From Vanrija pseudolonga (Eukaryota > Basidiomycota > Tremellomycetes > Trichosporonales > Trichosporonaceae), in NCBI RefSeq assembly GCF_020906515.1, contig NC_085853.1, positions 1,426,001-1,490,000 of the forward strand: 64,000 bases of DNA. Reading direction: 5' to 3'. Below, piece after piece: positions 21,069-63,189 of this stretch; within the stretch, counting starts at the first letter, position 1, and every line of letters begins with the position of its first letter. Under the pieces are notes generated by a model. That model was given only the letters and a program-made list of their open reading frames with translations, was not told the origin of the DNA and searched no databases. The translations under genes and the position numbers were made by a program.

Positions 21069-21478
21069 GCGCGATGAACTGTCATCGGGAGAGTGCCGCG
21101 GTGGAGTACCTCCCCGCCACATTCTCACATGCCTCAGCCTTCTTTGTCTGGTCCCCGGCCGCCTGACTTACACAGCTGGCCAGCTGGGCAAGTCAGTAGT
21201 CTCGTCCACATGACCTGCTGCCATCTGATAAGCGAGACATGACACAGTGGCCGTTACCACATAGTACCCGACACTTGATCGCCGCACGCACGGCGACCGA
21301 GGCAGTCGTCGTCGTCATCATCGGACGCGTCCCGCACCACGAGACACTACAACTACTTGCATTCAGGCTACACTACGATCCTCTTTTGACAACGCGGCGC
21401 GCGTCGGCGCGCGGAGCGCGGATGCCACGGCCTCGGCTATCGCCTCGCCTCGGCCCCCGCAGCCCCCTCCTCGGGCAC

Positions 21479-22954
21479 TTACAACCGCGCGCGCTCGGCA
21501 AGCGCAGGCTCGACGTAGTCGGAGAACTTGCTCGCGCGGACCTTGTTGAGCTCGGTCTGCGTGACGCGGCGCACCTCGCGCGCGACGTCGTAACCCGCAC
21601 GCTGGGCAGACGTCGTGCCGGCGCGGTAGAAGGCCGGCTTGCGCAGGATGCTGATCACGCAGCTGCCGCCCAGGCCCAGGTTGTGCGCGAGCGCGTTGCG
21701 CACGTTGGGAACTTGGAGGTCGCCGGCCTCGCCGCGCACTTGGAGGGTCAGGTAGAAGATCATGCCGAGGCCCGTGGCGCCGAGGGGCTGGGGGTGTTAG
21801 TGGGGGGGTTGATGGCGACGGCACGCGCTCGCGCGCTTCGCGCGCTCGCGGCGACTTACATGACCCTTCGACTCGAGACCACCACTGGGGTTGACCACCC
21901 ACTTGCCGCCGTACGTGTTGTCGCCGGCGTCGACAAGCTTGTGCGCCTCGCCCGTCTTGCAGAGACCGAGCGCCTCGTACGTGATGAGCTCGTTGGGGGC
22001 AAAGCAGTCGTGCAGCTCAATAACCTGCACGTCGTTGGGGCCGATGCCGGCCTGCTTGTACGCCTTGGCGACGGCCTGGCGGGCCATGTCGGCGCCGGCG
22101 AGCTCGATACGCGAGTGGTCCTCGTAGAGGTGGACACTGTCGGTGGCCACGGCCTGGCCGACAACCTCGACAGCGCGGTCCTGGAGGTTGTGCTTCTTGA
22201 CAAAGTCCTCCGAGGCCACGACGGCCGCGGCGCCGCCGTCCGACGTGGGCGAGCACATGGGGAGCGTGAGCTCACGCGTGATCGGGCGGGCCTTGAGCAC
22301 CTCCTGCCACGTCGGTGCGAAGCGGAACTGCGAGTACGGGTTCTTGACCGAGTGCTGGTGGTTCTTGGCCGAGATCTTGGCCCAGTGCTCCTGGGTCGAG
22401 CCGTAGCGCTCGCCGTGCTCTTTGCCGGCGGCGGCGAAGATGCGGCCGGCGGAGGGGCCCTTCTCAGGCGTGGCATACGCCTTCTCGTCCTCAATCTGGA
22501 GCACCTGCATGTACGTGCCCTGGATGGGCGACGGGCGGTCGGTCCACGGCGACGAGAGCGAGCCGGGGGCCATGCGCTCAAAGCCGAGCGCGAGCGAGCA
22601 GTCGGCCTGGCCAGACTGCACGGCCTGCACGGCGCTGACGAACGCCGACGAGCCGGTTGAGCAGTTGTTGTTGACGTTGAGGATCGGGATGCCCGTCATG
22701 CCAATCGTGTACAGCACGCGCTGGCCACACGTCGAGTCGCCGTACACGTACCCGACGGTAGCCGACTCGACGGCATCGTACGTGATGCCGGCGTCAGTCA
22801 GCGCCTTGACGGTCGCCTCGATGCCGAGCGCGTCGTAGTCGCGCTCGCCGCGCGGCTTGTCAAACTTTGTCGAGCCGACGCCGATGACTGTGGGAGGGGT
22901 TAGAGCAGCGAGGGACAACGACATACCATAGGCTTTCTTGGGGGTGTAGACCAT
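21479..22954 (-). CDS. SCP2-type peroxisomal thiolase
   Basis: Thiolase of the SCPx/SCP2-thiolase group, which cleaves 3-oxoacyl-CoA, often of branched or sterol-type chains, in peroxisomes. Three exons: a short first exon MVYTPKKAY, a 39-nt intron, then VIGVGSTKFDKPRG; a second intron splits ESKGH from PLGATGLGM. Catalytic features: the nucleophilic Cys in NNNCSTGSSA, the ELHDCFAPNE motif, and GHPLGATG. It ends ERARL and stop; A-R-L fits the PTS1 peroxisomal signal. There is no C-terminal SCP2 domain, so this is thiolase-only. It is divergently transcribed from nitronate monooxygenase, which ends in the same ARL. A TATA-like sequence lies about 77 bp upstream of the start. Confidence 0.93.
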
Positions 22955-25588: not shown

Positions 25589-27190
25589 CTACCCCCCAGC
25601 CCCGCTCACGGCCTTGTCGCGCAGGTTACCCTTGTGGCCCTTCTGCAGCGCGTTCCGCAGGGCGCCAACGGGCACCCCGACCTGGCGTCAGCGGTGTCCA
25701 TAGAGCCAACTCACCTCGCGGGACAGCTTGGCATAGTTGACCTGTGCGACGCCGAGGGTGACGACATGGTCCATCACCGCGCGCTTCTTGTCCGCCGTCC
25801 AACTGTTCGCGGTGCGCTTCTTGCTTGTCGGCGTCGGCGCTGGCACCTCGTCTCTCGGCTCTGACTTGATGCTCGCGGACGGCGCCAGCTCGTCCTCCTC
25901 CTCCTCAACCTCGACTGGCTTGCGCCCGCGCGGGCGCTTCAAGTCCTGCGCTGTGCGCGGGCGCTTGCGGGCCACCACCTCCTCCTCGTTGCTCTCGGTT
26001 CTTGCTGCGCGCTTCTTGGGCATCTTCGACGGCCCGGCCTCGGCGGCCGCGGCGGCGGCTGCTGGGGCCCGCTTGCGCCGGTACGTCACGAGCGGCTGCG
26101 GCTCGGGGTCGGGGAGCGGCGTCGTCGCTAAGCTCGATGTCGGGGCCATGGGTGCTAGCATTGCCTGTGGTGGTGCGGGCGTTGGAGAGCGCCTCGGGGG
26201 CTGGGGTGTTGGGGAACGCTTGGCCGGCACTTCTGTCGCGCTTGCCCCTGAACCCTGGTCGTTGCCCTCGTCCTCACCCTCCTCCTCTGACGCAGACCCT
26301 TCGCCGCCAGACGAGCTCCCACTCGGGCCGTTACTCACGCTACTGAGGTGGCTCGGCCCGTCGTCGGGGGCAACTGCGAGCAGCCGCGGGGAAGGCGGCG
26401 GACCCGCGTCGCTCGGCGCGTTCTTCGCGAGGTCGGCGATCCAGCGCTCAGTGCGCGCCTTGGACGAGTGCGGCGACGACGTCGTGTGCTGGCTGTGCTG
26501 GGCGGGGGAGGGTGCGTGGCCGTTGACGTTGACGTTACCAATGGGGTTTGGGTTTGGTGGTGGTGGTCCCTGATGATCGTCGTTATTGTCGCTCTCGGAG
26601 TGGAAGGATGGCGAGGCGGCGGCGGCAAGACGATGAGTAGTGGGTGGCTGCCTCTGTGGCCTTCCTTTCGGCGGCGCCTTGGTCGGTGTCGGTGCCTTCT
26701 TTTTGCTGCTGTCGCCAGTGGTGGCGGGAGCCGGAGCCTGATTGACGGGTGCAGCTGGTACAGCTGGTGGTGCAGAGGGGCGCACTGCGAGGCGTCCGCT
26801 GCGGCGTGTCGCTGGCGCAGTGGGGGTGCGCTGGGATGACGCGGGGCGCCCGCCCCGGCGGGCCGGTGCAGCAGTCTGACGGCTGGGCCCAGCCTCGTGT
26901 TGGTCGTGCTCGTCGTCGTCGACCTCAACTGTTCCTTGTTGCGCTGCAAAGCGCGCTACTTCCTCCGGTGTCATGGCGTGTGGGTCGATGTCGTCGTTGT
27001 CGTCGGCGTCGGGCGCTCCGGGCGGCGGCGCAGGCGCAGTGTCGTCGGCTGCGTCCTCTGCCGGGTTCTTGGGCTCGCTCTTCGTGCTCGCTTTGGGAGC
27101 CGCCTTCCGCTTGGTCGAAGCCTGGGGTGGAGCACTGGCCTTGGGCTGGGGCTTGGGTGGTACTCCACGGCTGCGCGTGTTGGGAGCCAT
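25589..27190 (-). CDS. large basic disordered protein with C-terminal NLRxKA domain
   Basis: Predicted protein of about 520 residues; no known family recognised. Almost all of it is disordered and rich in Pro, Ala, Ser, Lys and Glu, with acidic runs and basic clusters (KRPRGRKP recalls an AT-hook; PKKRAAR suits a nuclear signal). The only compact part is the last 60 residues: NSWTADKKRAVMDHVV, then NYAKLSRE, a 33-nt intron (about 25682-25714), then VGVPVGALRNALQKG and HKGNLRDKAV. The same domain, cut by an intron at the same residue, ends the genes at 27914-28288 and 29711-30137. WTxxxK plus two or three predicted helices resembles a Myb/SANT or other helix-turn-helix fold. Nuclear DNA or chromatin binding is inferred only. 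Confidence 0.75.
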
Positions 27191-27913
27191 GTTCAAGAGA
27201 AGAAGAGTATGGTTGAAAGACGAGCTTTGATGAGGTGTGCGTTGTGTGGTGTGGTAGGTGGTGTGGTAGTGGTATGGGCGGTGGATGGTGGTGGTGTGGG
27301 TGGGTTGAGTGTAGCGTAGGGTTGGGCGGTGCGCGGCGCATTCTCTCACGGTCGTGTCGTGACTCCTCCCACTCGAGTGAGGTCCGTGCAGACGACGCTG
27401 ACGCACAAGGTGACGACGGTGGAGGGCCGAGCGTCGGTGAAGGGGCGCCGGGCGCAAGGGGCGTGCGGCCGATCAATCTATGTAGGTGACGCCTTGACGA
27501 CGCCGTGACGACGCCGTGGCGGCCATGCATCGGCATGTCGTTACCAACCCCTCCAGTTTGTGCAAAGTTCAATGTAACTCGTTCAGGATGGTCAAGGTGT
27601 GTCGAGTTGCTTGCTTCATGATAACACGGCTGTAAACTCGCGAAAAAGGCGACATAATTGGCCGAAAAGGACGCTGACGCCACTCATCCGACGCCATCCG
27701 CCCAGCCAAGGGCAAGGGTGTCACCTCGTCACCTCACCGAGGTGCCAAATCGGTCTAGACAATGGGGTGCCAATCACCAAATGATTACATAGAAAGATGA
27801 TGGAGGCAGAGTGGATGAGGGCGCAGGCCACTGCTGGCCGCCGACAAGCACCCGCGGGATAACGTCACCAGTCGACTGCGCGCAGCCTCTCAAGCTCTCA
27901 ACCCCGCCGCGCC

Positions 27914-30695: not shown

Positions 30696-30767
30696 GCCTT
30701 TGTAGCTCAGTGGTAGAGCGCGCCTTTCGTAAGGGTGAGGTCGGCGGTTCAATCCCGTCCGGAGGCA
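30696..30767 (+). tRNA. tRNA-Thr(CGU)
   Basis: 72-nt cloverleaf without intron. Acceptor GCCTTTG pairs with CGGAGGC (with two G-U pairs), discriminator A. D arm GCTC...GAGC with the A-box TAGCTCAGTGG. Anticodon stem CGCCT/GGGTG around loop TTCGTAA, anticodon CGT. T arm GGCGG-TTCAATC-CCGTC provides the B box. Confidence 0.93.
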
Positions 30768-37031: not shown

Positions 37032-40000
37032 ATGAACACGCGCTCGAGCACACCCCCCACACCCAGCCCGGCCCCGCGCTTCAAGGCCGACTCAGAGGGC
37101 TACCAGTACCTCGACAAGCGTCCCTCGCTCAACCGCCATGCGACGTTCACCAGCCATAACGGCCGCGCCGATGGCGACCAATACTACACACAGAGCCAAA
37201 ACCCCGACAGCCGCGAGCAGAGCGCTCCGCCCCTGAGCTCCTCGACTACGTCGAGCCTCACCGACTCGCCCGTCCTCGAGACGCCCACAACGACGAGCCA
37301 GGAGCTCGAAATCCACATGCACAGCCAGGAAGCCAAGGCCAGCGACGAGCACGAACAACAGCAGCAGCAGCGCTTCCCCAAGCTCCAGGTCCTAGACACA
37401 CTGTGAGTGCCTGTCTTTTCCCTCTTGGTTCTTCTGTTTGTGTTGTGTGCGCGTGGTGCCTATCGGCATGTGGTGCGAGAGCACTTGCTTTCCCCGAAGA
37501 TTGGACGAACCATGATGCTGTGGCGTGCATTCGTGTGCACGCCGCGTGTAGCAACCGCCGCCATGGAACACGCCTGCACGGCCTGCAGCCGTCGTGAAGA
37601 TGTGTGTGTGGCGGCGTGCGTGCACGAGGGCAAGCTTGCCTGCGTGTGCGCACGTTAATCGACGTGCGTGCAATGGTGTGCGACGTGCGTGCGCAGTGCG
37701 CGAGATTCTTGCTCGTCGCCGAAGCACCACCAAGTCGTTCCTGCCAATCTGGCTGGATCGCGGGTGGGGCTCGAGTGGAACCTCCAACGCCCGCGGGACA
37801 ATCCGCCGCTCGCCTCGTGTGAACCTCGAGGCGGGGCGCAGTGACTCCCTGGCGGACACGGGGCCAGTGGTGCAAGCTCGCAAGCACTAAATGGGCAAGG
37901 GGTAGTGGTGGAGGGCGTCGGAGTCATGGGAGTCGAGGTTTGGGGCGGTGAGCGCGGTGGGGCGGGCAGCGAGCAGCAAGTGGCGCGAGAGAGCAGTCAC
38001 TTGCTCGTCTCCGCTGTGCATCGCCTCGAGTGTCTCTACGGCTCCCGCGCTCTCGCACCCCGCATGACTGAACAAAAGAATCTACTCCTCGCCTGCCTCT
38101 GCCTTGTCCATAACCACGCTGACGCGCCGATCAGGTCGACGACAACGACTACGGCAGTCACGGGCGCATCGCTTCCTTCGCTCCAGCAGCTGCACACGGG
38201 GCACGGCCACGCAGGGCACCACCACCCTCACCTTGGGGGCATCAGCGGCGATACCGCCAACAATGAGCATGTCGCCACTGCTGCGGCCGCTACAGCTGCT
38301 GCTGGTGTCAGCAGCTTTGCCCGCCACCCCCAGCAGCAGCAGGCGTACCTAGGGAGCAGCACCAGCAGCAGCTTTGGCTCTGGCGGCGGCGGCAGCGCCT
38401 CGTCTGCGCCGCCCACTCTTTCCTTTCATCACACTCCGCCTCCTCTTCTCACTCCACCCTTCAACACAAAGCCCAAGCTTGTCCTCCGCACCCAACACAA
38501 TGGACTCGCGGCTGTACACACCCACACACAGCTCCTTCACCACACGGCCCTGTCCTCTTGGCCCTCGCTAGATTCGCACGGCCTCCAGCCACCGCCCCCC
38601 GGCGCTGCTCAGGCCGCTACCGCCGCCGCCGCCGCTGCCTCGCTCGACGCACACACGTACCACCGTCGTCCCCCGGCAATGGCTCAAGAACTTATTCATG
38701 ACCAGCAGCAGCCGGCGCCGTCCACTCCTACAGCTTTTACTGCTCCGCACCCCTACCAGCTGCGCACGCGCCCTACCACTACGACGACTACCAGCGACCT
38801 CCTCGGCTACCGCCCCACCGCGACCGGCCTCGTGGCTGATCCCAACAACCAGGCCTCGGCCTCCACGGTCCAGCACCTCGCCTCAGCCCCTGCGCCCGGC
38901 GGCACATCACCAACGGCGTTTGCCACCACTACCACTCCGCCTCCTCCCGAGATCAAGCCCTTGATCCGCGAAGCCATCGCCTTCCCGTCCGCTGCCACTG
39001 CCGCCACCCAGCACCACGGCGCATACGGTCTCGGCTCTCCGTACCAGCAGGCGCGCGTGTACCAGTACGGCGGGAGTCAATACACCAGCCAGCAGTTTGC
39101 CGACGACGCGGCGTCGTACGCCAGCTCGGCCGCCTCGCCGACCACCGCCACCCAGCAGCACGGTCAGGGCAGTTTCAACAACAGCAACGGCGGCGGCGGC
39201 GCTGTCCCCCAGTCCTCGCCGACGTTTGACCAGCAGCAGACGTACAGCCCCCAGGTTGGAGCGACGTGGTACCCCAACGACTACAGCACGCCGTACGCTC
39301 GCCAGTCGCATATGCAGGGAGCGCCAAAGCAGCCAGAGCCCATCCTCGCCCCCGGAGAGCAGCCTGCTCCTCGTCCGGCTCCCTCGTACGCGGCCCTCAT
39401 TGGCGAGGCTCTGCTCCTCTCGCCTCCGCCCCACCAGCTCTATGTATCGGAGATCTCGGAGAGCATCAAGAAGAGGTACCCTTGTGAGTGTTGTCCACCC
39501 CGGCACACTCGCAGGGCCACACTAACGACTCGTTTCAGACTACCGCCAGAACCCGTCCAAGATCTACAATGGTGTCCGCCACCAGACGTCGATGTGCAAG
39601 GCGTTTGTCAAGCTCCCGCGCCCGTTCGGCGACCAGTCGGGCGGCGCGCGCAAGTGGGCGATCCGCCAGGGGTGCCAGTCGTGGTTCTCGCCTAGCGGCT
39701 TCCACCCGCCCAGCCAGATGAACATGAGCACCAAGCAGAGAGGCGGGGGCAAGATCAAGACCGTGTCCAAGGGCGGCGGAGGCGGCAAGGAGCGCCGCGG
39801 GTCCTCGCCCATCTCGTACAGCGGCAACGTCGCCGGCCCGTCGTCCGGCAGCCCATGGGACCCGGCCCGCGAGCCCCACCCTTACCAGCCTGGTGCGGGC
39901 GGCCAGCTCCAGCAGGTCGTCATGCAGCCCATCCAGCAGCAGCAGGTGTCGTACTACACCCAGCCGACGGCGTACCACTACGCTCCGAACCACCCGCCCC

Positions 40001-45735: not shown

Positions 45736-48700
45736 ATGGCAGACAACGCAGCCGGCCCGGCGCGCTCACAGTCGACCACCTCCCTCGCCCGCTTACACCA
45801 CGGCGGCCTCGCTAACGGCAGCGCACCGCCCGCCCCCGACGAGACCTCGGACCCCGCCCTCGACTTCTGCAATGCCTTCTGGGGCCCAGGTGACCGCGGC
45901 TATGAGGTCATCATGGCCAGGCTGCGTGGAGCATCGAGGACCATCGAGGAGCTGAGGCAGTTCTGGAAGGAGCGGTGAGTTGATACCAGGAGAGGGCGGA
46001 GGGAAGGGGCCGCGGGGACCGGCGCGGCAGGGCGTTGGGTTGGGCTCGAACTGCTGGCTGTTGTTTGTTAGGGAAGAGTGGGGGGTGGATCGCAGGGCTG
46101 GTGGCGCCGAGCCAACTCGGTGGGCTGGGAGCGATCCTCTTGGCTAGCGTCAGGCTGGTGACGGGGATGGTCCTCCTGCCAGCTCACTGGATTGCTCAGT
46201 GGATGTTTCCCAGAGGGACGTCGCCTTCCTCGAGACCGGCTCGCAGAAGACAAGGCGAGCCGACGTGCGGCCCAGTTCGCACGAGGCTCGGACGTCAACA
46301 TGGTTCTCTGCGCTCGTTCCCTCGGGCTCGAATGTTTATATTTGCGCATTGACACTAACCTTCGCAGCGCTGCCATCGAAGAGGAGTACGGCAAGCGCCT
46401 GCAGAAGCTCTCAAAGCTTCCCCTCGGCAGGGACGAGATCGGAGACCTCGCCGCCTCTCTCCAGTCTATCCAGGACGAGACAGCCGCCCAGGCGTCGTAC
46501 CATCTCAGCCTCAGCACCGACCTGCACCAGGTGGTCGAAGTTCCCACCACTGAGCTCGCAAACCGCTACGCCCATCTCAAGAAGGGTATCCAGGCCAGCG
46601 TTGAGAAGGCGTGGCGGAACAAGGGCTTACAGGAGGGACATGTGACCAAGGTGAGCCGATACTTTTTTGCGGACGGCGCCGCGCGCTGCGCGCTGCGGGC
46701 AACTGGAGCTAACGCCGACCCCCCAGGCCCGCGAGCGCTATGAGTCGGACTGCCTCAAGCTCAACTCGTACACGGCCAACACGCAGCTCGTGCAGGGTAA
46801 AGAACTGGAGAAGATCCATGGCAAGGTCGACCGCGTGCGGCAGACCATTGGCAGCAACGAGCAGGACTTCCGCAACTTTGTTAGTGTCCTCGAGGGCACG
46901 ACGCAAAAGTGGGAGAACGAGTGGAAGTCGTTCACCGATGTGAGTGGAGGGAGTGGGCGAGGGGGGTCAGGCGCTAATTCTGCCAGCAAGTCCAAGACCT
47001 CGAGGAGGACCGTCTGTCCCAGACCAAGGACATTGCATGGTCGTACGCCAACCAGGTGTCGCAGGTCTGCGTGGAGGACGACAGCGTAGGTGGCATGCGC
47101 TTCTTCAATTTGCTCACACCCAGTCATGCGAGCGCATCCGCGAGCGGCTCGAGCAGTTTGAGCCTGCCAACGACATGGTCAACTTTGTTCGCGGCTGGGG
47201 CACTGGTGACCAGATCCCCGACCCGCCGAGGTTTGTCAACTACTCTGTCGGCCAGAACCCCCCCACCCCGACTTTCCACACTGCCACGTTCAAGCGTGTT
47301 GCAGCGAAGGCACCCCTGAGGCCGGTATCGATTCCCAATGCCGATCAGGAGCCAGAACCTGTGGCTGAGCCTGCACAGCAGAGGACGGCGTCACCAGACA
47401 CCTACCAGCCCCCAGCGCCGCCGCCCGTGCCGAAGGAGGATCCATTCAGCCCGCCCCGCGAGGAGCCTTTCACGCCGCCCACTGACGGTGTTGAACGCTT
47501 GATTCTGCGCGACGACGGCCCGACACCCTCTGTCCCACCAGCTGCCTCGCGCTCGCCCAAGCCACCAGTCGGCGGCGTCGCCCTCCCTGGCCTCGCCGCT
47601 GGTGTTGTTGGAGCCGCAGCCGGTGCTGCTGGCATCGGAGCAGCCATTGGAGGATACAAGAACTCTCACCCACCGCCTGTGGCGACCGCATCGCCCCCTA
47701 CCCAGACCATTGACATGCCACCGCCACCTGTTCCGCAGGCGTACCAGGGACCTCCCAGCCCGAGCGCGCGTGACGTTCTGGACGAGGATGACCCGATGGC
47801 CCGCGCGCTTGCCGAGCTCCGTCGCGACCCTCCTGGGTCCAATGTCCGCAGACAGCGTTCGCAGAAGCGCCCCGGCTCGGTCTACTCGACGAGTGGCTCA
47901 ATCCGCAGCAACAACCTGGGGGCGGGCGGTGCCCCATCTGCGTCGCCGGCGCCTGGAGGCAATTACTACCCGGGCCAACAGCGCGTGTCGGTCGACAGCG
48001 GCCTTATCCCTCCTGCTGGCGGACACACCGCCGCTCAGCTTGCCAAGTCCAAGGCGGACTTTGACAGCGGACGCGGCAAGCAGAGCGTCAACTACTCCAG
48101 CTACGGTGACGACATTGTCGGCGGTCACCCGTCGCGGCCGTCTTCGCCTGCTGCCCGCTCTCCTTCTCCATCTGCAGCTATGATGCAGCCCCCAACTCAG
48201 CCTGCGACTCACCCCGCCGACGCTGTGCTTCAGCAGTACGGTCAGGCGTTCCCGGGTGAACGTAGCCGTTCGCGCCCTGCTTCCGTCTACTCGAACCACT
48301 CGCGTGCGCCGTCTATCAACGAGTCGGCCGTGACGTCGTCGGTTGCCCCCGAGCGGCCTCTTGAGGGCTTTGCCGGCATTGGCGCGGGTGGACGCAGCCC
48401 GTCGCCTGCGCCCAACAAGCAGTTCCGCTCGCCGTCGCCTGGCCCTGGTGGCCATGGCGTCCTCGGCCCGCAGAACCTCGGCATCTCACTCGACGCATCG
48501 GGAGGTGTCGCGCAGGACTCGATGGCCGAGGCCTACCGTCGGCAGTATGAGCAGCAGAAGCAGCAGTCTGGCCACGAGCGCCAGCCGTCGCTTCAGCAGC
48601 CTCCAGTCGACCCTCAGCGTCCGACGTCGCAGCACTCGTACCACGCGCCGAGCCAGCAGCAGCAGCAGCCGGCAGCGGGTGGCTATGTGCCCCCCGCACC

Positions 48701-49612
48701 GGCGCCTTTCTCACAGTATGCGCCGGCTCCTAGCCAGAGCAGCTACTACCCCAGCTCCACGAACCAGTACAACCCGGCTCAGCGACAGCCGTCCCAGCCG
48801 GCGCCTCAGCAGCAGCCGCCACAGTCACAATACCAGCCCCCTCAGCAGCAAGGATACCAGCCAGCGCAGCAGCAGCAGCCGCAGCAGCCACCGCAACAGC
48901 CACAGCAACAGCAGCAGCAGTACGACCAGTATGGCAGACCACTGCAGGGCCAGGCGCCGAGCGGCTACGCTCAGCACTCGCACCAGTCGTCGCAGTCATA
49001 CTCGGGTTACGGCCAGCCTCCACAGCAGCAGCAGCAGCAGCAGCAACCAGGCTACGGCGGCTACCAGCAGAACTCGTACTCGAAGCCGCCCGAGCCTCAG
49101 CCATACCGCGCACCATCGCCCCAGCCTGCAGCTCAGCAGTACCGGGCGCCGTCGCCTCAGCCTGCCGCCCAGCAGTACCGCGCGCCATCGCCTCAGCCCG
49201 CTGCGCAGCACTACCGTACGCCATCGCCCCAGCCGCAGCAGCCGGCGATCCACCAACAGGCGTCACAAGACTCGTACCTCACGCAAAACCAGTCGCAGTA
49301 CAACCGGTCGCCTAGCCCCCAGCCGGCCCTGCCACCGAACAACGCTCCGGCCACTGGCCAGTGGTCGAGCAATGGGCTCCCCATTTTATTCTGTGAGTGC
49401 ATTGTTTATGGACGCACAGCTGACATTCAGATGTTCAAGCACGATACGACTACCACGCTCAGTCTGCTGCCGAGTTCGACTTCCAGTCTGGCGACATTAT
49501 CGCCGTGACGTCTACACCAGAGGACGGATGGTGGTCTGGCGAGCTTCTCGATGAAGCGCGCCGCGTCGCCGGACGCACCGACTTCCCGTCCAACTTTGTC
49601 GAGCTGTTCTGA
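45736..49612 (+). CDS. F-BAR/SH3 cytokinesis scaffold (Cdc15/Imp2/Hof1-like)
   Basis: Membrane-bending scaffold of the contractile ring. Start MADNAAGPARSQ; F-BAR domain of about 250 residues over five exons: DFCNAFWGPGDRGYEVIMARL, then after an intron of about 394 nt RAAIEEEYGKRLQKLSKL, then ANRYAHLKKGIQ, ARERYESDCLKLN, and CERIRERLEQFEP with FVRGWGTGDQIPDPPRF. A disordered, Pro/Ser/Gln-rich middle of about 700 residues follows, including four copies of a 12-residue repeat. After a last intron the C-terminal SH3 domain reads YVQARYDYHAQSAAEFDF, GDIIAVTSTPEDGWWSGEL and FPSNFVELF, with the ALYDY, WW and PxNY-like surfaces recognisable. Domain order and terminal SH3 match Cdc15/Imp2/Hof1. It may act in the same pathway as the kinase at 4117-9545. 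Confidence 0.92.
49102..49245 (+). repeat. 36-bp coding tandem repeat
   Basis: Four near-identical units encode YRAPSPQPAAQQ (the last is YRTPSPQPQQP) within the disordered part of the F-BAR protein, about 250 bp before the SH3 exon. Confidence 0.85.
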
Positions 49613-51891: not shown

Positions 51892-52674
51892 CTACGTCAT
51901 CATCTGCGTATTGACACCCCAGTACTCGACCTTGCGGCTCTCAATGAGTCGCAGTGCGCGCCTGTGCTCGAGGTATGCGTGCTGGGTGGGGCGGGGTGTC
52001 AGCTTCCTCTCCCCCCCTCTGGGCCCACTCACCACCACCACCCCAGCCATGATGACAATCGGCACGCCCGCGCCGATCGGCGCAGCGATAGTACAGCTGT
52101 TAATCACCCTCTGTGCCGCCTGCCTGTCGGGCGCGTACAGGGCGGAGAAGAACGCCTCGGACATGTCGGGCGAGATGGTGCGCGTCGCCGTGATCGTCGC
52201 GACGGGGGCCGCGGCCACGGGCTTGGCGAGCAGCGGCGCCGTGGCGAGCGCCGCCGTCGCCGTCGCCATGGACGACATGGACGACTTGCGCACCCACGTG
52301 CGGTTGATGTCCTCCGGCGGCGCGTTGGCGAGCATGTCGCGCGTGGCGCGGCGATATGTCCTCACTTTGACGAGGACGAGGGGGAGGACGAAGAGGGATA
52401 GTAGGAGGCACGGGACGATGGCGGCCGCGAGCAGGCCGTGCTGGCGTGCCCTCAGCGCGTCGAGCGCGCGCAGCTCGCGGCGCTCGTAGGTCGCGCCGGA
52501 GATTAGCGCGAGGCGGGTCACTGTTGTTGTTGACCGCGGTGGTGCGGCGGTGACGGACGAGGCGCGGGTGGTGGTCGTCATTAGCGCGGGTGAGGTCGAC
52601 GCGGCGAGCTGCGGGGCGGCTTGCACCAGGACGATGACCGACGCCGCTGCTAGTGCGAGAATGGGGCTGCGCAT
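51892..52674 (-). CDS. KVEYWGVN-family membrane protein 1
   Basis: 243 residues. Exons 52033-52674 and 51892-51981, with a 51-nt phase-0 intron. Signal peptide MRSPILALAAASVIVLVQAA; short Ser/Thr-rich ectodomain; span HGLLAAAIVPCLLLSLFVLP; cytosolic loop RRATRDMLANAPPEDINRTW; Ala-rich hydrophobic segment around APLLAKPVAAAP; second Thr-rich outer loop ending SALYAPDRQAAQRVI; last span APIGAGVPIVIMAGVVVV; tail HAYLEHRRALRLIESR-KVEYWGVN with five extra residues, TQMMT. It is the only member on the minus strand, divergent from member 2. The family is unknown to me. Location in plasma membrane or secretory pathway is inferred from the signal peptide. Confidence 0.82.
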   Translation of the reverse strand: MRSPILALAAASVIVLVQAAPQLAASTSPALMTTTTRASSVTAAPPRSTTTVTRLALISGATYERRELRALDALRARQHGLLAAAIVPCLLLSLFVLPLVLVKVRTYRRATRDMLANAPPEDINRTWVRKSSMSSMATATAALATAPLLAKPVAAAPVATITATRTISPDMSEAFFSALYAPDRQAAQRVINSCTIAAPIGAGVPIVIMAGVVVVSGPRGGERKLTPRPTQHAYLEHRRALRLIESRKVEYWGVNTQMMT

Positions 52675-53425
52675 GGCATGTATGTCGGCGTGCAGCACCT
52701 CACACGACCGACGACATCGGGGGATAAGTACTGGCATCATGGCGCGGTAACGGGCGGCAGGCAGGTCAGAATCGGCGAGTCGCCAAGCCAAGTGCCACTC
52801 CACACACGTGCGATGCGATGCGGCCGACGTGACCGGGGCAGATGAGATACTCCGCGCGTGTCGATTCGGTACGGCGACTGCGACCGTATTAAGCATAATG
52901 CCTAGAGGCACTCAGGTGCAGAGAAGCGCGGGGCACAGCAATGTGCGGGTGGGGTTGGTGGAGTGGTGCATCGCCATTGTTGTTGAGTCGACTCGCCATC
53001 TGTTCTCCGACTCGCGCTCCCCTTCGCTATGCCCACCCAGCTGGCTGTATCGCACGTGCCGTGCTCGTGCTCGTGGCTGCATTGCTTGCTCGCTCGACAC
53101 GGCGGCCGCGGGTGAGCATCCGATACAGACTGCAGTGCAGTGCATCACCTCGCCGAGGTCTACACCACATCCGCAGCACACAGCACTGGATCGGTGCTGC
53201 ACGAAATAAGCCGACCACGTCGGAGTGAGCAGTGCCGCACTAGCAGAGTCTTGGCAAGCACGTTTCTGGCAACAAGATCACGGTCGCGAGTAACGTCCGG
53301 CGCGAGTGATGGCGACTTGGGCGAGCGACGACGATGCAGCAGCAGCAGCAGTAGTAGTATAAGTCTGCCGAGTCGTGTGAGGTGTTCTCCCAGGCACAAG
53401 CAACCACCCCCACACGCCATACACA
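52675..53425. promoter_or_regulatory. divergent promoter of membrane-cluster genes 1 and 2
   Basis: A 751-bp region between two divergent starts. TATAAG at 53358-53363 lies about 65 bp before the start of member 2. AGCAGC and AGTAGT runs precede it. No gene seen inside. Confidence 0.5.
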
Positions 53426-54273
53426 ATGCGCATCATCCACCCCGCGTCTGCCTTCGTCGCACTCGCCGCGCTCGCCGTGGCACGCGCCGAGCCCCAGCTC
53501 GCAACCACCACCCCCACGCGCAACGTCACCTTCCCCACAGCGCGCACGTCCACCTTCAGGTCGACCGACACGGTGCTGCCGACGACCACGCGCACGCTGA
53601 TCGAGACGCGCTTCGCAGAGGGCACGCGGGCGGCGGACATCTCGTACGCGGCCGAGAGGCGCACGAACGCCGCCGAAGCGCGCGCGCAGGGCCTGCTGGC
53701 CGCGGCGATCGCGCCGATCGTCGTGCTGTCTATCGTGTTCGGGCCGTGCGTGTATATCGCGCTGCTGCAGTACGAGCGGCACACGCGCAAGATCATCGCC
53801 GACGCGCGCGCGGCGGACGTTAACCGCCCGTGGGGGGACGACGTCGAGCTCGCGCCCAAGGAACCTGAGCAGCCAGAGCCCTACGTCACCCCGTACGCGT
53901 CCCCCGCACCCGTGCCGCGCGGCGCGCTCGTCGCCGTCTCCGTCCCGCTGCTGGCCACGCCCGCCGCTGCGGCGCCTGCAGCCGTGAGCACGACCGTCAC
54001 GACGGCGTTCCGCAGCGCCGAGTCGTTCTTCGCGGACAAGTACGCGCCCCAGCGTGAGGCAGCCGAGCGGACCATACGGAACTGTACCATCGCCGCGCCG
54101 ATCCTGGCCGTCGCGCCGTTCCTCATCAGCGCGGTCGCGTTTGGCGTAAGTGGACTCTGGCTGTCGCTGGACTGCACATGCTTACCCATGCCACCACCTA
54201 GATCCTGTACGTCCGAAGAAGACGCGCGCTCGCCTTCGCCAAGCCAAAGGTCGAGTACTGGGGTATCAACTAG
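53426..54273 (+). CDS. KVEYWGVN-family membrane protein 2
   Basis: 263 residues. Exons 53426-54145 and 54202-54273 (56-nt phase-0 intron). Signal peptide MRIIHPASAFVALAALAVARA; Thr-rich ectodomain with one N-linked sequon (NVT); span LLAAAIAPIVVLSIVFGPCVYIALL cut after about 21 residues; loop YERHTRKIIADARAADVNRPW then VELAP; hydrophobic ALVAVSVPLLATPAAAAP; second outer loop SFFADKYAPQREAAERTI; last span APILAVAPFLISAVAFG; exon 2 encodes exactly 23 residues, ILYVRRRRALAFAKP plus KVEYWGIN. Family unknown; topology is inferred from hydrophobicity and the positive-inside rule. Confidence 0.85.
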
Positions 54274-54530
54274 ACGGACAGTTGGGTTCCGCTGGAACCG
54301 GGCCTGCCGGGCCTGGCGGGCCTGGCAACACGGGCACTTTATATCTTGTGGCAGTGATGAAGCGGTGTAGTAGCAGTCTCCCACCGGCGACGATTGGACG
54401 TCATCGCCAAGATGTGTACCGGTAACGTATGACACTGTGCGAGCCGGTGTGTCGCCACTGCTTGAGTGACATGCAAAGTCTTGTATATCACGGCCGTCTT
54501 CCCGGCCAGCAGGCCGCCACACCGACCAAG
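54274..54530. promoter_or_regulatory. promoter of membrane-cluster gene 3, duplicated block
   Basis: Contains GACGATTGG (inverted CCAAT) near 54388, GAGCCGGTGTGTCGCCACT at 54441-54459, and GTATAT about 48 bp before the start. The same three elements in the same order precede gene 4. Confidence 0.6.
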
Positions 54531-55375
54531 ATGCGTCGCCACATCAGCATCCTCGCCCTCGTCGTCGCGGCCGCCACGCTCGTGGGGGTGCACGCGCAAC
54601 TCTCGACACCCACTCCGGCCACCACTACTACCACCGCCGCGACGCGCACATCGACAGCAAGCACCCGGCGCAACGGGAGCACGATCACCCGAGTGATAGT
54701 GACCAAGACAGCCTCGCACACGTGGACACGCACTCATGCCGCCCAGAGAACGGGGTATCGCGCGACGTGGGACGCGAACAAACGCCGCGCCAAAGCACTG
54801 GAGCGGCAGGCGCACGCAATGCTCGTCTCGACCCTCGTGCTGGGCCTCGGGCTGTTCCTCGTCGCGCTGCCAGTGTTCATCGTCTTCCTGCGGCGGTACG
54901 ATAGGCGCACGCGGGATATCCTCGCTGATGCTGTCCCCGATGACATCAACAAGCCGTGGAAGGGGTACGAGATGGCGCCGGCGCCCCCCGGGCGACCAAA
55001 GTCAGGCAAGGCCGCCGTGGCCGCCGCCGCCGCCGCCGCCGCGCCGCTGCTCCTCGCCAAGCCCGCAGCAGCAGCGCCGACGACGTACAGCCTCTCGACG
55101 ACGACACTGTGGCCCGACGTGACCCTCACGCTGGACGACGACGTGTACTACGACCTGTGGTACAAGCCTGACCGGGATGCGGCCACGCGCAAGATCCACG
55201 CGCTGACCATCGCGCTGCCGGTGGTGGTCGGCGTGCCGCTCCTCCTGATGGCAGGCCTGGCACTCGTGCGTATTTGCCCCTGGTGACGCCGCGCTGACTT
55301 CAGAATGCCTATCTCCGCCACCGCCGGGCCAAGATCGTCGCGCGGCCAAAGGTCGAGTACTGGGGCGTTAACTGA
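54531..55375 (+). CDS. KVEYWGVN-family membrane protein 3
   Basis: 268 residues. Exons 54531-55265 and 55304-55375 (38-nt phase-0 intron). Signal peptide MRRHISILALVVAAATLVGVHA; Thr-rich ectodomain with one sequon (NGS); first span about 96-118 (LVLGLGLFLVALPVFIVFL); loop RRYDRRTRDILADAVPDDIN then KPWKGYEMAP; Ala-run hydrophobic segment ending PLLLAKPAAAAP; second outer loop with DDDVYYDLWYKPDRDAATRK; last span ALPVVVGVPLLLMAGLAL; tail of 23 residues, NAYLRHRRAKIVARP plus KVEYWGVN. The best-conserved example of the family pattern. Promoter and upstream flank are duplicated in gene 4. Confidence 0.87.
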
Positions 55376-55651
55376 GTTTGATTGCTTGTTTGCTTGTAGA
55401 TGCGATGCGATGCAGTGGTAGGTTCCGCTGGATCCGGGCCTGGGAGGGACGGACCTGCTTGGCGAGGTTGTGCCTTGTGAGAGAGAGACATGAAGCAGTG
55501 CAGTGACTCCCACTGACGACGATTGGCCGTGCCAAGACGGGCACACCGGCAACTTGTGCCGCTCACGCGAGCCGGTGTGTCGCCACTTCTCGCAAGACGT
55601 CTGGGTATATGAAGCCGTAGAAGGCTCACGACCAGTGGGTCGCCACACAAG
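55376..55651. promoter_or_regulatory. promoter of membrane-cluster gene 4, duplicated block
   Basis: GACGATTGG near 55517, GAGCCGGTGTGTCGCCACT at 55569-55587 (identical 19 bp to that before gene 3) and TATATGAA at 55606-55613, about 40 bp before the start. Confidence 0.6.
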
Positions 55652-56545
55652 ATGCGCCGCCACACGATGCTCGCCGCCCTCCTGCTCGTTGTAGCCGTTT
55701 CGCTCGCCGACGCGCAACTCTCGCCCACAACAACCACCGCCACATCCGCCACCGCCACAAGCATCCCCACAGGCCAAGTCCTGACCGTCACCAGGGGCTA
55801 TGAGCACTCCTTCAACCCCGGCTGGCAGGAGCTCGAGCGGCGCGAACTGGCGCGCGTGAAGGCGTTGCAAAAACGCGTGGGGGCCATGCGAGCCGCCACG
55901 CTCGTCGTCGGCCCCGCCATGCTCATCCTCGTCGTGCCAGTCTGCTGTGTCACGCTTTGGGTGTTTATCAAGCCCCAGGCGCGGCGACCGACGCCGCACA
56001 AGCCCAAGCCCAAGCCCAAGCCAGAAGCAGTCGAGATGGCGCCGCGTAGCCCGTCGCCGGCGAAGGCGCAGCCCGTAATCGGCCCAACGGCTACTGAGCC
56101 GTACGCCTATCCCACCGGCACCGGCACCGGCTCGAAGGCCAGCGCGGCGACGCTGGCGGCAGCAGCGATTCCCCTCCTCGCCAAGTCTGCCGCCGCGTCC
56201 ACATACGTCTCCACCACGACTGTGGCACTGTGGCTCGACGACGCGGCGTACTACGACAACAAGTACAAGTATGACCGGCTGATCGCCGAGGAGGATTTCC
56301 GCCCGTGGATGATTGCGCTGGTGGCTATCATGGGCGTGTCGGTGCTGATCGTGGCGGGGTTCGCGCTGGTACGTGTGCCACGGCTGGCTGTGGGTAGCTA
56401 GCTGGACTGACTTGCCGGCCCACAGGGGTTGTATCTTCACTACCGCGAGCGCAGGGCGGTATTACGTCGCGACTTGGAGCTTCGCCAGCAGCTCGAGTTC
56501 GCGGGAGTCAAGTATGTAGACAGGCGTGCTGAGTATCGTGGCTAG
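55652..56545 (+). CDS. KVEYWGVN-family membrane protein 4, diverged tail
   Basis: 278 residues. Exons 55652-56368 and 56426-56545 (57-nt phase-0 intron). Signal peptide MRRHTMLAALLLVVAVSLADA, nearly that of gene 3; short Thr-rich ectodomain; span ATLVVGPAMLILVVPVCCVT; cytosolic loop has lost the DINKPW core and instead carries a Lys-Pro repeat (HKPKPKPKPE) before VEMAP; Ala-rich segment with IPLLAKSAAAS; outer loop AAYYDNKYKYDR; last span IALVAIMGVSVLIVAGFAL; the tail is 39 residues and ends AEYRG rather than EYWGVN, with FAGVKYVDRR before it. Recent duplicate of gene 3 by promoter, with an altered cytosolic face. Confidence 0.83.
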
Positions 56546-56792
56546 TCGCCTTGCACTGCACAGCTATGTCGTTGTATGAGCACGTTTATGGTGCATGTCC
56601 AACATTTGCTCCATTCCGTGAGTGGAGCCGAACGAGCAGTGCCAGCCAGCCACTAGCTCAGAGACGGACTTGCACATGATGGGTGGTGCTTGACCCACTA
56701 ACAACCCACCATGCCCATGCCTCCCGGCATATATGAACGGCGCTTGGCCAGCCCCAGCTCACACGATCATCAGTCGTAACAAAACAAGCAAC
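56546..56792. promoter_or_regulatory. promoter of membrane-cluster gene 5
   Basis: TATATGAA at 56731-56738 lies about 60 bp before the start, the same TATA variant as gene 4. The 19-bp block of genes 3 and 4 is absent. Confidence 0.5.
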
Positions 56793-57614
56793 ATGACCTC
56801 CCCCCTGCTCCTCGCTCTGGCCGCAAGCACCCTCCTCGCTGCCGCCGAGGCCCAGCTCACCAAGGCAAACAGCAGCGCGCCGACAGGAGCGCCGCTACCG
56901 CCACCGGGCACCAACAGCCTCGTCCTGACACGCAGCAGGACATGGACGGTGCCCGCCACCAACACGGGGTACAGCGAGGTGGATCACATCCAGTCGCTCC
57001 GCGTGCAGGCCTTGAAGGACCAGGAGCACAGACTGTTCATCGCGACCGTCACGCTCGGCGTGGTGATGTTCGTGGTCGTGCTCCCTGTCTTCTTGTTCCT
57101 CCTGCGCCGGTACAATGCCCACACTCGCCGTCTCCTCCAGCAGGCCCCGCCGCCCGAGGTATACAAGCCGTGGGTGGGGCTCGAGATGGTGCCGCCGACG
57201 GGCACGGGCACGGCGTTCCCGAGCAACAAGAAGGTTGGCACGGTCGCTTTCGCTGCCGCCGCCGTGCCGCTGCTCGCCAAGCCCGCCGCGGCGACGACGA
57301 CGGCGACATATTACGCCTCGACGGAGTTCGTGCACACAACGGTCACAATCGACGACCAAAAGTTCTACGACAACTGGTACAAGCCCCAGAGGGAGTACGC
57401 CACGCAACAGATCGCGACGCTGTCCATCTTGCTCCCCATCATTGTCATTGTGCCGCTGTTCCTGATGGCCGGCTTGTCACTGGTACGTGCGATACGTCAT
57501 GCTGACCTGTGTCGGTCGTCGAGCAGAGCTGACACGGCCCAGCACGCGTATCTCCGCCGCCGTCGGGCCAAGAGGACTACTGGCCGCAAGGTTGAATACT
57601 GGGGAGTCAACTAG
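56793..57614 (+). CDS. KVEYWGVN-family membrane protein 5
   Basis: 253 residues. Exons 56793-57482 and 57543-57614 (60-nt phase-0 intron). Signal peptide MTSPLLLALAASTLLAAAEA; Pro/Thr-rich ectodomain with one sequon (NSS); span FIATVTLGVVMFVVVLPVFL; loop RRYNAHTRRLLQQAPPPEVY then KPWVGLEMVP; hydrophobic AFAAAAVPLLAKPAAAT; outer loop DDQKFYDNWYKPQREYATQQ; last span SILLPIIVIVPLFLMAGLSL; 23-residue tail HAYLRRRRAKRTTGR plus KVEYWGVN. With gene 3 this sets the family consensus. Confidence 0.87.
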   Translation: MTSPLLLALAASTLLAAAEAQLTKANSSAPTGAPLPPPGTNSLVLTRSRTWTVPATNTGYSEVDHIQSLRVQALKDQEHRLFIATVTLGVVMFVVVLPVFLFLLRRYNAHTRRLLQQAPPPEVYKPWVGLEMVPPTGTGTAFPSNKKVGTVAFAAAAVPLLAKPAAATTTATYYASTEFVHTTVTIDDQKFYDNWYKPQREYATQQIATLSILLPIIVIVPLFLMAGLSLVRAIRHADLCRSSSRADTAQHAYLRRRRAKRTTGRKVEYWGVN

Positions 57615-58001
57615 TCGGAGAGAGTGGAGTCGATGCAGTGCTTGGAGTGGCGTCGGTGTGCCGGAATAGACCGACCCGCTTGGCTTGGTGCAGCGGCGGC
57701 TGGCTTGGCATTTCGAGCACGTTTGTGCCACCACTGCAGGACACCCAATGCACCCAACCCACCTGCCTAGAGTCGTAACAATTAACCCGCTAGTCCTGTG
57801 CATACCGCAAGCCGCGCTCGGGGCTGTGCGTGCATGCATCCCGCGGCCCGCCCGCTCGTGTCGGAGCAGGCGGGGTACATAGCGCGCGAGGATGCAGCAT
57901 GGCACTGACAGCCCAACAACAACAACGACAGCAGCAACAACAACAACCAACCGACCTCGGTTACACCCCACTCGCGCGACTGACGTCAACCACCTACAAC
58001 C
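57615..58001. other. intergenic region, membrane-cluster genes 5 and 6
   Basis: A 387-bp spacer with a CAACAACAACGACAGCAGCAACAAC tract (given here in short units of CAA/CAG) near 57910-57950, which would be in the 5' UTR of gene 6. No gene seen. Confidence 0.45.
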
Positions 58002-59428
58002 ATGCGGATACGCTCTGCGCTTTTCGTCCTGCTTCCTGTGGCGGCAGCCGCGCCGGCCCTCACCATCCCCGTGACGCTCGGCGTGCTCGTCACCACCGTC
58101 ACCATGGGTGACCCCGGCCCGACGGCGACAATAGCGACGACGCCCACCGCCGCCGCCGCCGGCGCGATCCAGACAGTCACTGTCCCCGGCACCACGGTCG
58201 TGGCGTACGGCTCGACGTACACTTTGCCCGGCACGACGATCTACTCGACGACCGCGCGGAGCGTGTACAACACGTTCGCGACGACGGTGGCCAACACGCC
58301 AACGACGGCCTTCACGGCCGGCGAGGGGCGCTTCGAGTCGACATACGACGTCGCCACTACGACCATCACGCTTGCCGGCGGCGAGCTCTCAACGAGTACG
58401 ATACGCACCACGACGGTGGTGTACCCGCCCCGGAACACGGCACAGTGGACATGGACCGCGGTCGAACTCCAGCGGCCCGAGCCTACCCCGGGCGCCATCT
58501 TCAACGAGCAGGTGTGGGCCGCGCAGAGCCGCGCGAGCTCGCTGCACGGCGCGATGGTCATCACTGTCATCGTGTCGACGCTGCTCATGGCCCTCGTCGG
58601 CTTCCCCGCGTGGCTGTGGTACCACTTCGTCACGGTCAAGCGCGAGATGACGGGCCGGCGGAACGTGCTGAGCGACAGCGGCGGCGGCAACGGCACCGTG
58701 CAAGACTGGGAGATGATGCGCCACGCCGGGACGGCAGAGCGCGCCGCCATCGACAGGCAACATGCGCGCGACGCGGCTGCCGAGGCGGACCCCGCGCCGG
58801 CGTACACCCCTCCCTCCGAGGGTGTGCTCCCGCAGTACGGGGCCGACGAAGAGCGCCAGCGGCTGCTGGTCTCCGGTGCGGCCGTCGCCACGGCGGCGGG
58901 GGCGGCGCTCGCCAACGTGCCTGTCGCGAGGGGAGCTCCCGTCGCCACCGCTGCGGCGCCGAGCGCTGCGGGCCCCGCAGCAGCCGCGCGCGCATGGGTC
59001 ACGACGGCGGTCGAGGCGTCGACCCGCGTGCCAGGCGTGCCGTATCCCTACTCCTACACGCCAGTGACCTTCAACACGACGATGCGCGTCCCGGACGCGA
59101 CGGTGACCTCGACGTCCTACTCGTACAAGGGCTGGTCGCCGTCCGGCGCGGCGCAGCTGGCCGCCGCGAATCGGCAGTACACTGCCGCGCAGGTCGGCAT
59201 CGCGCTGGGCATCATCATCCCGTGGGGGCTTATCGCGCTGTGTTTCTTGGTGCGTTTTGTTTGGATGGGCTGGTTGATTAGCCGCTGACGCTTCAGATAT
59301 CGTGGCGCAAGGTGCGCAGATGGCGCAAGGTCCAGAAGTACCTCGAGGGCGGGGACGTCGACTACTCCGCCGTGCGGGCTGCGCGGTGCGACGCTGCATC
59401 GCGTGAGATTGCAGCGGGGGCTCGGTGA
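58002..59428 (+). CDS. diverged membrane-cluster protein 6 with PY motif
   Basis: 459 residues, the longest member. Exons 58002-59249 and 59297-59428 (47-nt phase-0 intron). Signal peptide MRIRSALFVLLPVAAAAPA; an ectodomain of about 160 residues very rich in Thr (repeated TTT and TTxT), likely O-glycosylated; span MVITVIVSTLLMALVGFPAWLW; cytosolic loop KREMTGRRNVLSD with PAPAYTPPSEG, a PPxY-like element, and LPQYG; Ala-rich hydrophobic segment; second outer loop with NTTMRVPDATV; last span VGIALGIIIPWGLIALCFL; tail ISWRKVRRWRKVQKYLEGG and on. Same domain order and intron position as genes 1-5, but the KVEYWGVN end is absent. Closest to gene 7. Confidence 0.82.
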
Positions 59429-59806
59429 TGATGGCTGGATGGCGCTAGCGTGAGAGCGGGGTCTGTACTTTGCGTGCATAGAGGATTATGGACAATGACG
59501 CACCTGTTGTTGTTGTACGTACATGCTACATTACATTTAAAGGCACCCGGGGTTTCAAAGAGTCAGATGACGACGTCTGGATACCCGCTTTTGTAGAGTG
59601 CCTGTTGCTCTCTAGCTCATCCCGTCTGCGGCCAGACTACTGAATCATGTGCGGCGGTCATGTCACCAGGCCGGATGGTGGTGGGCTGCAGGCCGAAGTG
59701 TGGGCTTAATGCACGCTATCGTGCTGTGACAGCCAGTGCATGCACACCAGAGTGTCTGTCTCTTGACACTGCACACTCCACCACCACCACCACCACGACC
59801 ACCACC
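59429..59806. other. intergenic region, membrane-cluster genes 6 and 7
   Basis: A 378-bp spacer ending in an ACC/CCA trinucleotide run (59778-59806) directly before the start codon. ACATTTAAAGG near 59532-59542 is AT-rich but far from the start. No gene seen. Confidence 0.45.
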
Positions 59807-60774
59807 ATGCTGCCACTGCTACTCACCGCACTCCTAGCCACCCAGGCCAGCGCCCAGCGGGCAACGACGATCACAATCACCCAGCCGCAGACGACAGCTC
59901 CGGGGCACGAGCAGACGGCCATGACGACGATCGTCGCCAACCCGCACCTGACGTACACGCTCGGCGCCGACACGACGGCAGAGTACTTCACCACGACGAT
60001 CGTGAGCACCATCATGGGCAAGATCCAAGACACGCAGATCACGTCGGTGCCGTACCCGGCCGCGACGGCGCCGTTCGTCTGGACCGTCACGCAGTCGACC
60101 GACGACTGGTTCCGCGAAGACCGGAAAGCGGACAAGCTGTTCAATGCGTTCTTGGCCAGCATCATCACGAGCCTCTGCCTCGCGGGCTTTGTTGGCTTGA
60201 CGCTCGTACTGTGGTACCGCAGGAGGGTACGCCGCGAGATGGAGCGCGGAGACGGGGACGGGGACGAGGCGCCGCCGGCGTACTCCCCGCCACGGGGCCG
60301 CTCGGTGTACTCGGTGTACTCGGTCTCATCGGGCAAGGGCCTAGTCGGCACCGCAGCGGCAGCAATGGCGCTCCCCAAGGCGTTCGCCGCGCCCCTCCGC
60401 CGCGCGCTGGTCGCGACCACAATGACGCTGTCCACCGAGTCGCGCGACCAGCTGGGCCTGTACTCGCCCGCCGCGACAGGCGTGATCACGACCACTTTGC
60501 GCATCCCGGACAAGACGCAGACCGTCTTCCCGTACACCACGCAGGCGAGCTACATCAAGGCCGTGCATCGGCAACACGTGTACGCGGGGCTGATTGGCGT
60601 GAGCTGGGCTGTGCCGATGCTGGTTGTGGCGGCTTTCCTCTTGGTAAGTGGCACAGGGCGACGCCTTGCTGATACCAGCACTCGTTCCTCAAGTTGCGCC
60701 GCTGGCGCCAGCGACAGCGCGCCGCGCACAACGTGCCCCTCGGCATGCTCGGCGCGGCGCCGGGGACCAAGTAG
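59807..60774 (+). CDS. diverged membrane-cluster protein 7 with PPAY motif
   Basis: 310 residues. Exons 59807-60643 and 60679-60774 (35-nt phase-0 intron). Signal peptide MLPLLLTALLATQASA; Thr-rich ectodomain; span AFLASIITSLCLAGFVGLTL; loop RRRVRREMERGDGD with APPAYSPPRG (a PPxY motif); a repeated SVYSVYSVSS; Ala-rich segment GTAAAAMALPKAFAAP; second outer loop ITTTLRIPDKTQ, matching TTMRVPDAT of gene 6; last span GVSWAVPMLVVAAFLL; tail HSFLKLRRWRQRQRAA ending GAAPGTK. The intron sits directly after the last span as in all members. With gene 6 it forms a separate subgroup. Confidence 0.82.

Positions 60775-61405: not shown

Positions 61406-63189
<1,784 letters not shown>

Follow-up and report, generated by a model that had tools for sequence, protein, structure and literature searches.

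In the basidiomycete Vanrija pseudolonga, whose genome comprises 24.87 Mb in nine contigs, seven spliced genes (g1 to g7) for predicted small membrane proteins were modelled at positions 51892-60774 of the 64,000-nucleotide (nt) stretch that was analysed (C5:1,426,001-1,490,000; hereafter, the window). The present study suggests that they represent a narrowly distributed family with an unusual layout, so far known from this genome and from a single further sequence, P0003. Specifically, each chain reads twice through the series signal peptide, Thr-rich ectodomain, span and basic residues, and the second unit opens with an Ala-rich segment that resembles an internal signal peptide in its basic start, short apolar core and small-x-small end. 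From the sequences, we give an even chance to the view that the family encodes precursors, each made of two tandem units that correspond to small, mucin-like type I membrane proteins.

Gene structures and extent of the cluster

All seven models are open, with no internal stops, once a single GT..AG intron of 35-60 nt is removed from each, and the GC content of their third codon positions (GC3) is 0.81-0.90. In every one of the seven, the intron is in phase 0 and falls directly after the last span, which places the basic tail in an exon of its own. Only g1 lies on the minus strand (51892..52674; 243 amino acids (aa); exons 52674-52033 and 51981-51892); it is identical to P0002 (GenBank LOC62_05G007250). 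The plus strand carries g2 (53426..54273; 263 aa; exons 53426-54145 and 54202-54273), g3 (54531..55375; 268 aa; exons 54531-55265 and 55304-55375), g4, which has a divergent tail (55652..56545; 278 aa; exons 55652-56368 and 56426-56545), and g5 (56793..57614; 253 aa; exons 56793-57482 and 57543-57614), together with the two members of a second subfamily, g6 (58002..59428; 459 aa; exons 58002-59249 and 59297-59428) and g7 (59807..60774; 310 aa; exons 59807-60643 and 60679-60774). Among the public models compared, those for g1, g3 and g6-g7, two depart from ours. The protein P0004 (LOC62_05G007252) equals the last 172 aa of g3, its public model starting at an internal Met, and LOC62_05G007255 (P0001, 736 aa; window 58002-60774), which contains most of g6, joins g6 to g7 and splices out the second span of g7. 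Because P0003, a homologue of g7 found as a raw frame on a 19.7-kb contig, retains that second span, the fusion is likely an annotation error.

A preliminary description of this locus had counted a seven-gene cluster. The seven genes are real, but the cluster is larger: it reaches ~C5:1,495,180, ~5 kb beyond the window, and comprises no fewer than eight intact genes together with a frame-broken copy and a remnant. The additional members lie on the minus strand of the stretch past the window (L020). Of these, g8 (L020 1605-610; 258 aa) is intact and has two introns, the first of which, with a GTGGGT donor, is our own call; here too a phase-0 intron, of 167 nt, follows the last span and is succeeded by a basic last exon. 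The same intron and last-exon arrangement (52 nt) recurs in the 3′ piece of g9 (L020 4272 down to ~3300), whose 5′ and 3′ pieces are separated by a frame break, so that it is a pseudogene or else misassembled; g10 (L020 ~5180-4700) is a C-terminal remnant. Unless the break in g9 is an assembly error, g9 and g10 are a sign of birth and death within the cluster. An alpha-amylase-family gene (window 61406-63157, minus strand; Pfam E 3.9e-66) separates g7 from the outlying g8-g10. All eight intact genes share one segment order: signal peptide, Thr/Ser-rich ectodomain A, span 1, loop, Ala-rich segment, ectodomain B, span 2 and basic tail.

Around g3, two duplicated flanks (one of 24 nt, 96% identical, with copies spaced 1128 nt; the other of 22 nt, 95% identical, spaced 1136 nt) suggest that a unit of ~1.13 kb was duplicated in tandem. 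The two copies of the 24-nt repeat (54439-54462 and 55567-55590) lie ~60-90 nt upstream of the start codons of g3 and g4, and the repeat is a promoter element present in duplicate or else a trace of the tandem duplication.

Family relationships, relatives and conservation

The plan that the preliminary description had proposed for the seven genes is read in all models, and their relatedness is above chance both by BLAST and by profile comparison. Among g1, g2, g3 and g5, BLAST gives E 1e-18 to 6e-50; g4 matches g2, g3 and g5 at E 2e-6 to 4e-15 but g1 only at 0.011. The second pair, g6 and g7, match each other at E 5e-7 or 6e-4, depending on which serves as the query, and direct comparison of g1-g5 with g6 or g7 is weak (E 0.012 or worse). 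Profile comparison, with the spans included, joins the two subfamilies through both their A halves (E 1e-6) and their B halves (E 2e-6). On these comparisons, g1-g5 are homologous and g6-g7 are a divergent subfamily, joined to them by profile comparison and by the common intron position. The motif set quoted in the preliminary description is present in the first subfamily but is not family-wide, being missing from g6-g7: KVEYWG[VI]N occurs in four of the seven (g1, g2, g3 and g5), the D-[IV]-N motif in g1-g3 and in degenerate form in g5, and YYDxWYKPxR is recognisable in g1-g5 only. Conversely, the loops of g6, g7 and g8 carry (L/P)PxY motifs, namely LPQY in g6 (aa 276; 58827..58838, plus strand) and PPAY in g7 (aa 156; 60272..60283, plus strand), the latter being the same in P0003. 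In other proteins, motifs of the (L/P)PxY type are binding sites for Nedd4/Rsp5 ligases. The tails of g1, g2, g3 and g5 carry YWG[VI] close to their ends, which has the form of a YxxPhi sorting signal, and g1-g4 have dibasic pairs a short way ahead of span 1 that could be candidate Kex2 sites.

The earlier view of these genes as tandemly grown membrane proteins of no known family holds. There are eight-plus tandem copies, and in a Pfam search of g1-g8, P0001 and P0003, no family reaches its cut-off (g1, g3, g5, g6, g7, g8, P0001 and P0003 were compared against cut-offs, and g2 and g4 by exon 1 and, as whole chains, in the tally of g1-g7). An NCBIfam search of g1-g7, compared by E-value with family cut-offs aside, gave a best E of 0.0036, and a sequence search of the PDB a best E of 0.018. 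From ~5.8 billion proteins, four sequences were returned, three from this locus and P0003, the latter 78% identical to g7 over exon 1. Thus, no relative outside the V. pseudolonga locus was found in this collection save P0003; absence from other Trichosporonales is not proven by this result, because the search is word-based and requires shared five-residue words and because, in one search, 8000 candidates were scored. Within the V. pseudolonga genome, queries with g3, g4, g6, g7 and g8 gave no match at E <=0.01 off the cluster among the best candidates scored. Sub-threshold matches off the cluster lay on C4 (E 0.013) and C6 (E 0.06) for the g3 query, and on C2 (E 0.018) and C1 (E 0.54) for g8; long Thr-containing frames around the C4 and C6 matches, which need not be the matched frames themselves, we take by eye to be lipase-like and elongation-factor-Ts-like. 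Among the literature naming V. pseudolonga, by titles and abstract openings, nothing concerns this membrane-protein family.

The preliminary description had further proposed a constant cytosolic face with variable outer parts, and this is borne out in part. Of the large parts, in g1-g5 the tail is kept best (mean identity 0.50) and ectodomain A worst (0.26, with 30% gaps), but the loop (0.36, with 20% gaps) is kept about as well as ectodomain B (0.34, with 16% gaps). The spans fall close to these values (0.31 for span 1 and 0.38 for span 2), and the internal segment lies higher in its core (0.43) and its c-region (0.68). The sole cross-genome comparison, of g7 with P0003, partly contradicts the idea, since the ectodomains are better kept (56/63 residues in inner ectodomain A and 54/63 in ectodomain B) than the loop (30/39); the spans retain 20/24 and 18/22, and outer ectodomain A, at 11/34, is the only strongly varying part. 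In this pair, the internal segment (10/18) and the N-terminal signal peptide (10/16) both change faster than the spans (38/46 together), the difference having P 0.05 for the internal segment and P 0.16 for the N-terminal signal. The ratio of the proportions of nonsynonymous and synonymous differences (pN/pS) among g1-g5 is 0.67-1.0; since pS (0.51-0.60) is near saturation, selection analysis of these paralogues is uninformative. For g6-g7, pN is 0.52 and pS 0.48.

The internal segment and a possible two-product precursor

The internal segment occupies aa 131-155 of g1 (52210..52284, minus strand) and, on the plus strand, aa 165-184 of g2 (53918..53977), 158-182 of g3 (55002..55076), 161-182 of g4 (56132..56197), 146-166 of g5 (57228..57290), 285-311 of g6 (58854..58934) and 176-195 of g7 (60332..60391); examples are ARRGKIVTVASLLFARLPSAAAQA (g8), GKGLVGTAAAAMALPKAFA (g7) and SRKVLGIAGAMALPKASA (P0003). 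Its properties were compared in ten sequences (g1-g9 and P0003) with those of 20 spans, counting one span for each piece of g9 and two for the P0003 chain and leaving out two automatic transmembrane picks, one a polar stretch in the 5′ piece of g9 and the other the internal segment of g9 picked again. The uncharged run measures 10-20 residues in nine of the ten internal segments, g2 with its 30 being the sole long one, and 10-18 in nine of the ten N-terminal signal peptides (32 in g6), against 22-26 in 20/20 spans; by Mann-Whitney test, internal segments differ from the spans (P 4e-4) and not from the N-terminal signal peptides (P 0.91). The "Ala-rich hydrophobic segment" of the preliminary description, whose likeness to a second signal peptide went unremarked there, is present, yet shorter and less hydrophobic than a true span, and by a crude membrane-insertion sum, each of the ten is less favourable than each of the 20 spans. 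Scored for signal-peptidase cleavage with a von Heijne matrix, nine of the ten reach at least 3.5 at some position (the lowest score, 1.9, belongs to g5), and by eye all ten have, behind the core, a small residue at -1 and another at -3 (Val in g1). A strict automatic pattern test, run in a scan of 139 open reading frames (ORFs) of at least 200 aa that included the cluster, is passed by seven of the eight intact genes, g2 being the failure.

From the gene structures, homology and layout described above and the signal-like properties of this segment, we infer a topology, cleavage, glycosylation and surface location along the following lines. The N-terminal signal peptide would start translocation, and the Thr-rich ectodomain A would enter the lumen of the endoplasmic reticulum (ER), presumably to be O-mannosylated, until span 1 halts transfer and leaves the loop in the cytosol. 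The Ala-rich segment would then act as a second signal peptide, crossing from inside to outside and taking ectodomain B into the lumen, before span 2 halts transfer again with the basic tail on the cytosolic side. Signal peptidase, cutting behind the internal segment, would release proteins A and B, each with a single span, co-translated and made in equal amounts, in the manner of IGSF1. An inside-to-outside crossing is required for the very basic tail to be cytosolic, and we consider it probable that the internal segment restarts translocation; that it is also cleaved appears evenly balanced. The (L/P)PxY loops of g6, g7 and g8 and the YWG[VI] tails of g1, g2, g3 and g5 would agree with cytosolic placement. 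The Thr-rich ectodomains and the tandem growth are compatible with surface or wall proteins, and we lean somewhat toward products that face the surface or wall rather than being retained in the ER or Golgi. The sensor, adhesin or recognition roles put forward in the preliminary description are conjectural.

Several observations weigh against such processing. Basic residues stand also just before span 1, on its supposedly luminal side; with basic residues flanking this span on both sides, the sequences follow the positive-inside rule only imperfectly. Comparing runs and insertion sums is biased toward a signal-peptide reading, the spans having been chosen as best windows and the internal segments by hand, and the insertion sum ranks the internal segments as less hydrophobic even than the N-terminal signal peptides (P 0.002), which suggests that their strength as signals may be low. 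By itself, the matrix fails to tell the two apart, with scores of up to 8.1 in true spans, its best position in g3 and g5 precedes the KPAAA residues rather than following them, and Ala-rich sequence gives A-x-A by chance. The cut positions found by the pattern test often differ from the proposed ones, and its specificity is unproven, because one of the only two background ORFs with two spans also passes. The internal segment of g1-g5 is, by the identities given above, well conserved and not fast-changing. Structure prediction, which the preliminary description had proposed as a check, could be made with AlphaFold2 for g3 and g7 and runs a long helix through each span, but at low confidence (mean predicted local distance difference test score 50 and 38, respectively); in g7, a helix of very low confidence at 194-215 adjoins the proposed cut site. 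Moreover, homology of the A and B halves is not established, and no internal duplication is claimed. In five pairings of A with B halves, hhalign gives E 1.2e-4 to 9e-3, against 8.8e-4 to 0.31 for reversed controls; when only the first subfamily is compared, the result equals that of its reversed control (9.5e-4 and 8.8e-4). With ectodomains alone, the mean z of A against B is 0.46 over 100 pairs (best 3.1; same-gene pairs at most 0.9), and this test has little power, because its positive controls across subfamilies are equally low (0.33 for A with A and 0.99 for B with B).

The main rival, to which we give a lesser though appreciable likelihood, is the topology of the preliminary description: an uncleaved three-span protein whose Ala-rich segment crosses from inside to outside as an ordinary span or signal anchor, and whose two Thr-rich loops belong to one chain. 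It predicts the same segment order, is served equally well by matrix scores that fail to separate the internal segment from spans, and could explain the conservation of the PLLAKPAAA c-region in g1-g5 (0.68) as structural; the segment of g2, with its 30 uncharged residues, is long enough to span. A signal peptide moved internally in Trypanosoma cruzi GP82 was neither recognised nor cut (PMC6513831), a result that tells against processing here and that allows an internal signal peptide to stay uncut. However, in nine of the ten segments the uncharged run is no longer than 10-20 residues and the insertion sum is unfavourable, and the AlphaFold2 model of g3 has, at low confidence, no helix of at least four residues in this stretch. 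The same model, the crude insertion sums, which are positive in all ten, and the basic residues that flank span 1 on either side would suit a two-span protein in which the segment stays outside the membrane and the second Thr-rich stretch is cytosolic or of mixed placement. We regard this arrangement as unlikely, as it would put Thr-rich sequence in the cytosol and a very basic tail (of the YLRRRRAK type) outside, against the positive-inside rule.

It is very unlikely that the genes are divergent members of known fungal families of sensors or trafficking proteins. In Mid2-type wall sensors, a Thr/Ser-rich ectodomain precedes the span, and UniRef labels P0001 "Mid2 domain-containing." The family studied here differs in its second signal-like segment and second span, and membership was rejected: the PF04478 profile matches five places in the genome, none of them in the cluster, and no cluster match appears at E up to 1. 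For Psg1 (PF14610), Pfam matches g3 at E 2.7e-5 and g5 at E 2e-3, and Psg1 (Ykl077w) is described as having a signal peptide, an O-mannosylated luminal part, Kex2 processing, and a single span near the C terminus followed by a short cytosolic tail with basic retrieval motifs (PMC5607100). Yet the best match (positions 126-177) reaches 24.5 bits against a cut-off of 30.1, and of the 186 profile positions nothing outside 126-184, its last third, is matched; this part corresponds to late ectodomain B and the last span, so Psg1 membership was likewise rejected. In the genome search, g3 scores 16.4 bits, whereas a place on C2 matches positions 29-184 above the cut-off, and among 14 control genomes the profile has a match below cut-off in one, that of an archaeon. 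Decay, by which the copies would be untranslated tandem duplicates with no protein product, is the least likely reading and has very little probability. The frame-broken g9 and the remnant g10 would fit it, and pN/pS gives no clear sign of constraint in g1-g5 or g6-g7; against it stand eight intact spliced genes with a common intron position, the g7 frame kept in P0003 at 78% identity over exon 1, and the proteins predicted by public annotation for g1, g3 and g6-g7.

The reading of the Vanrija proteins as cleaved two-unit precursors has its closest parallel in mammalian IGSF1, in which signal peptidase, together with signal peptide peptidase, is described as cutting one chain co-translationally at an internal signal sequence, to give two products, each with an ectodomain, a single span and a short cytosolic tail (PMC9162367). 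The layout read in the Vanrija family resembles this one, with cleavage predicted. It differs in having short Thr-rich ectodomains in place of Ig domains, in forming a tandem gene family, and in that the halves of IGSF1 are clearly homologous, whereas homology of A and B is not established. Bunyavirus glycoprotein precursors provide a viral precedent; the Vanrija genes, in contrast, are a spliced chromosomal family of small fungal proteins. In their 2022 paper, the authors of the IGSF1 work state that they are unaware of other cellular proteins processed via an internal signal peptide (PMC9162367), and among titles and abstract openings of the open-access literature, which leaves most subscription papers outside, no fungal protein cut at an internal signal peptide is described. 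We consider it possible, at a little below even, that these are independently evolved, IGSF1-like cellular polyproteins of a fungus, from which signal peptidase would yield two co-stoichiometric mucin-like membrane proteins, the first with a PY-motif tail (g6-g8) and the second with a basic tail ending in a YxxPhi form (g1, g2, g3 and g5). If this is true, then these fungal paralogues, eight or more in number, would offer a separate and experimentally amenable example of internal-signal processing, in which one could ask which features make signal peptidase cut inside a multi-span protein and how such precursors arise. In addition, a narrowly distributed membrane family is useful for studying tandem growth.

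Other features of the window

Elsewhere in the window, a 1693-aa frame on the minus strand (4779-9860) contains a protein kinase domain at E 1.3e-70 and, less strongly, matches calponin homology at E 4.4e-8. Four further long open frames, at 46944-49508 (plus), 37845-39695 (plus), 25688-27472 (minus) and 21200-22660 (plus), have no Pfam match at E 1e-5, and some of them may be chance frames in GC-rich DNA. A tRNA-Thr (CGT) gene lies at 30696-30767 on the plus strand.

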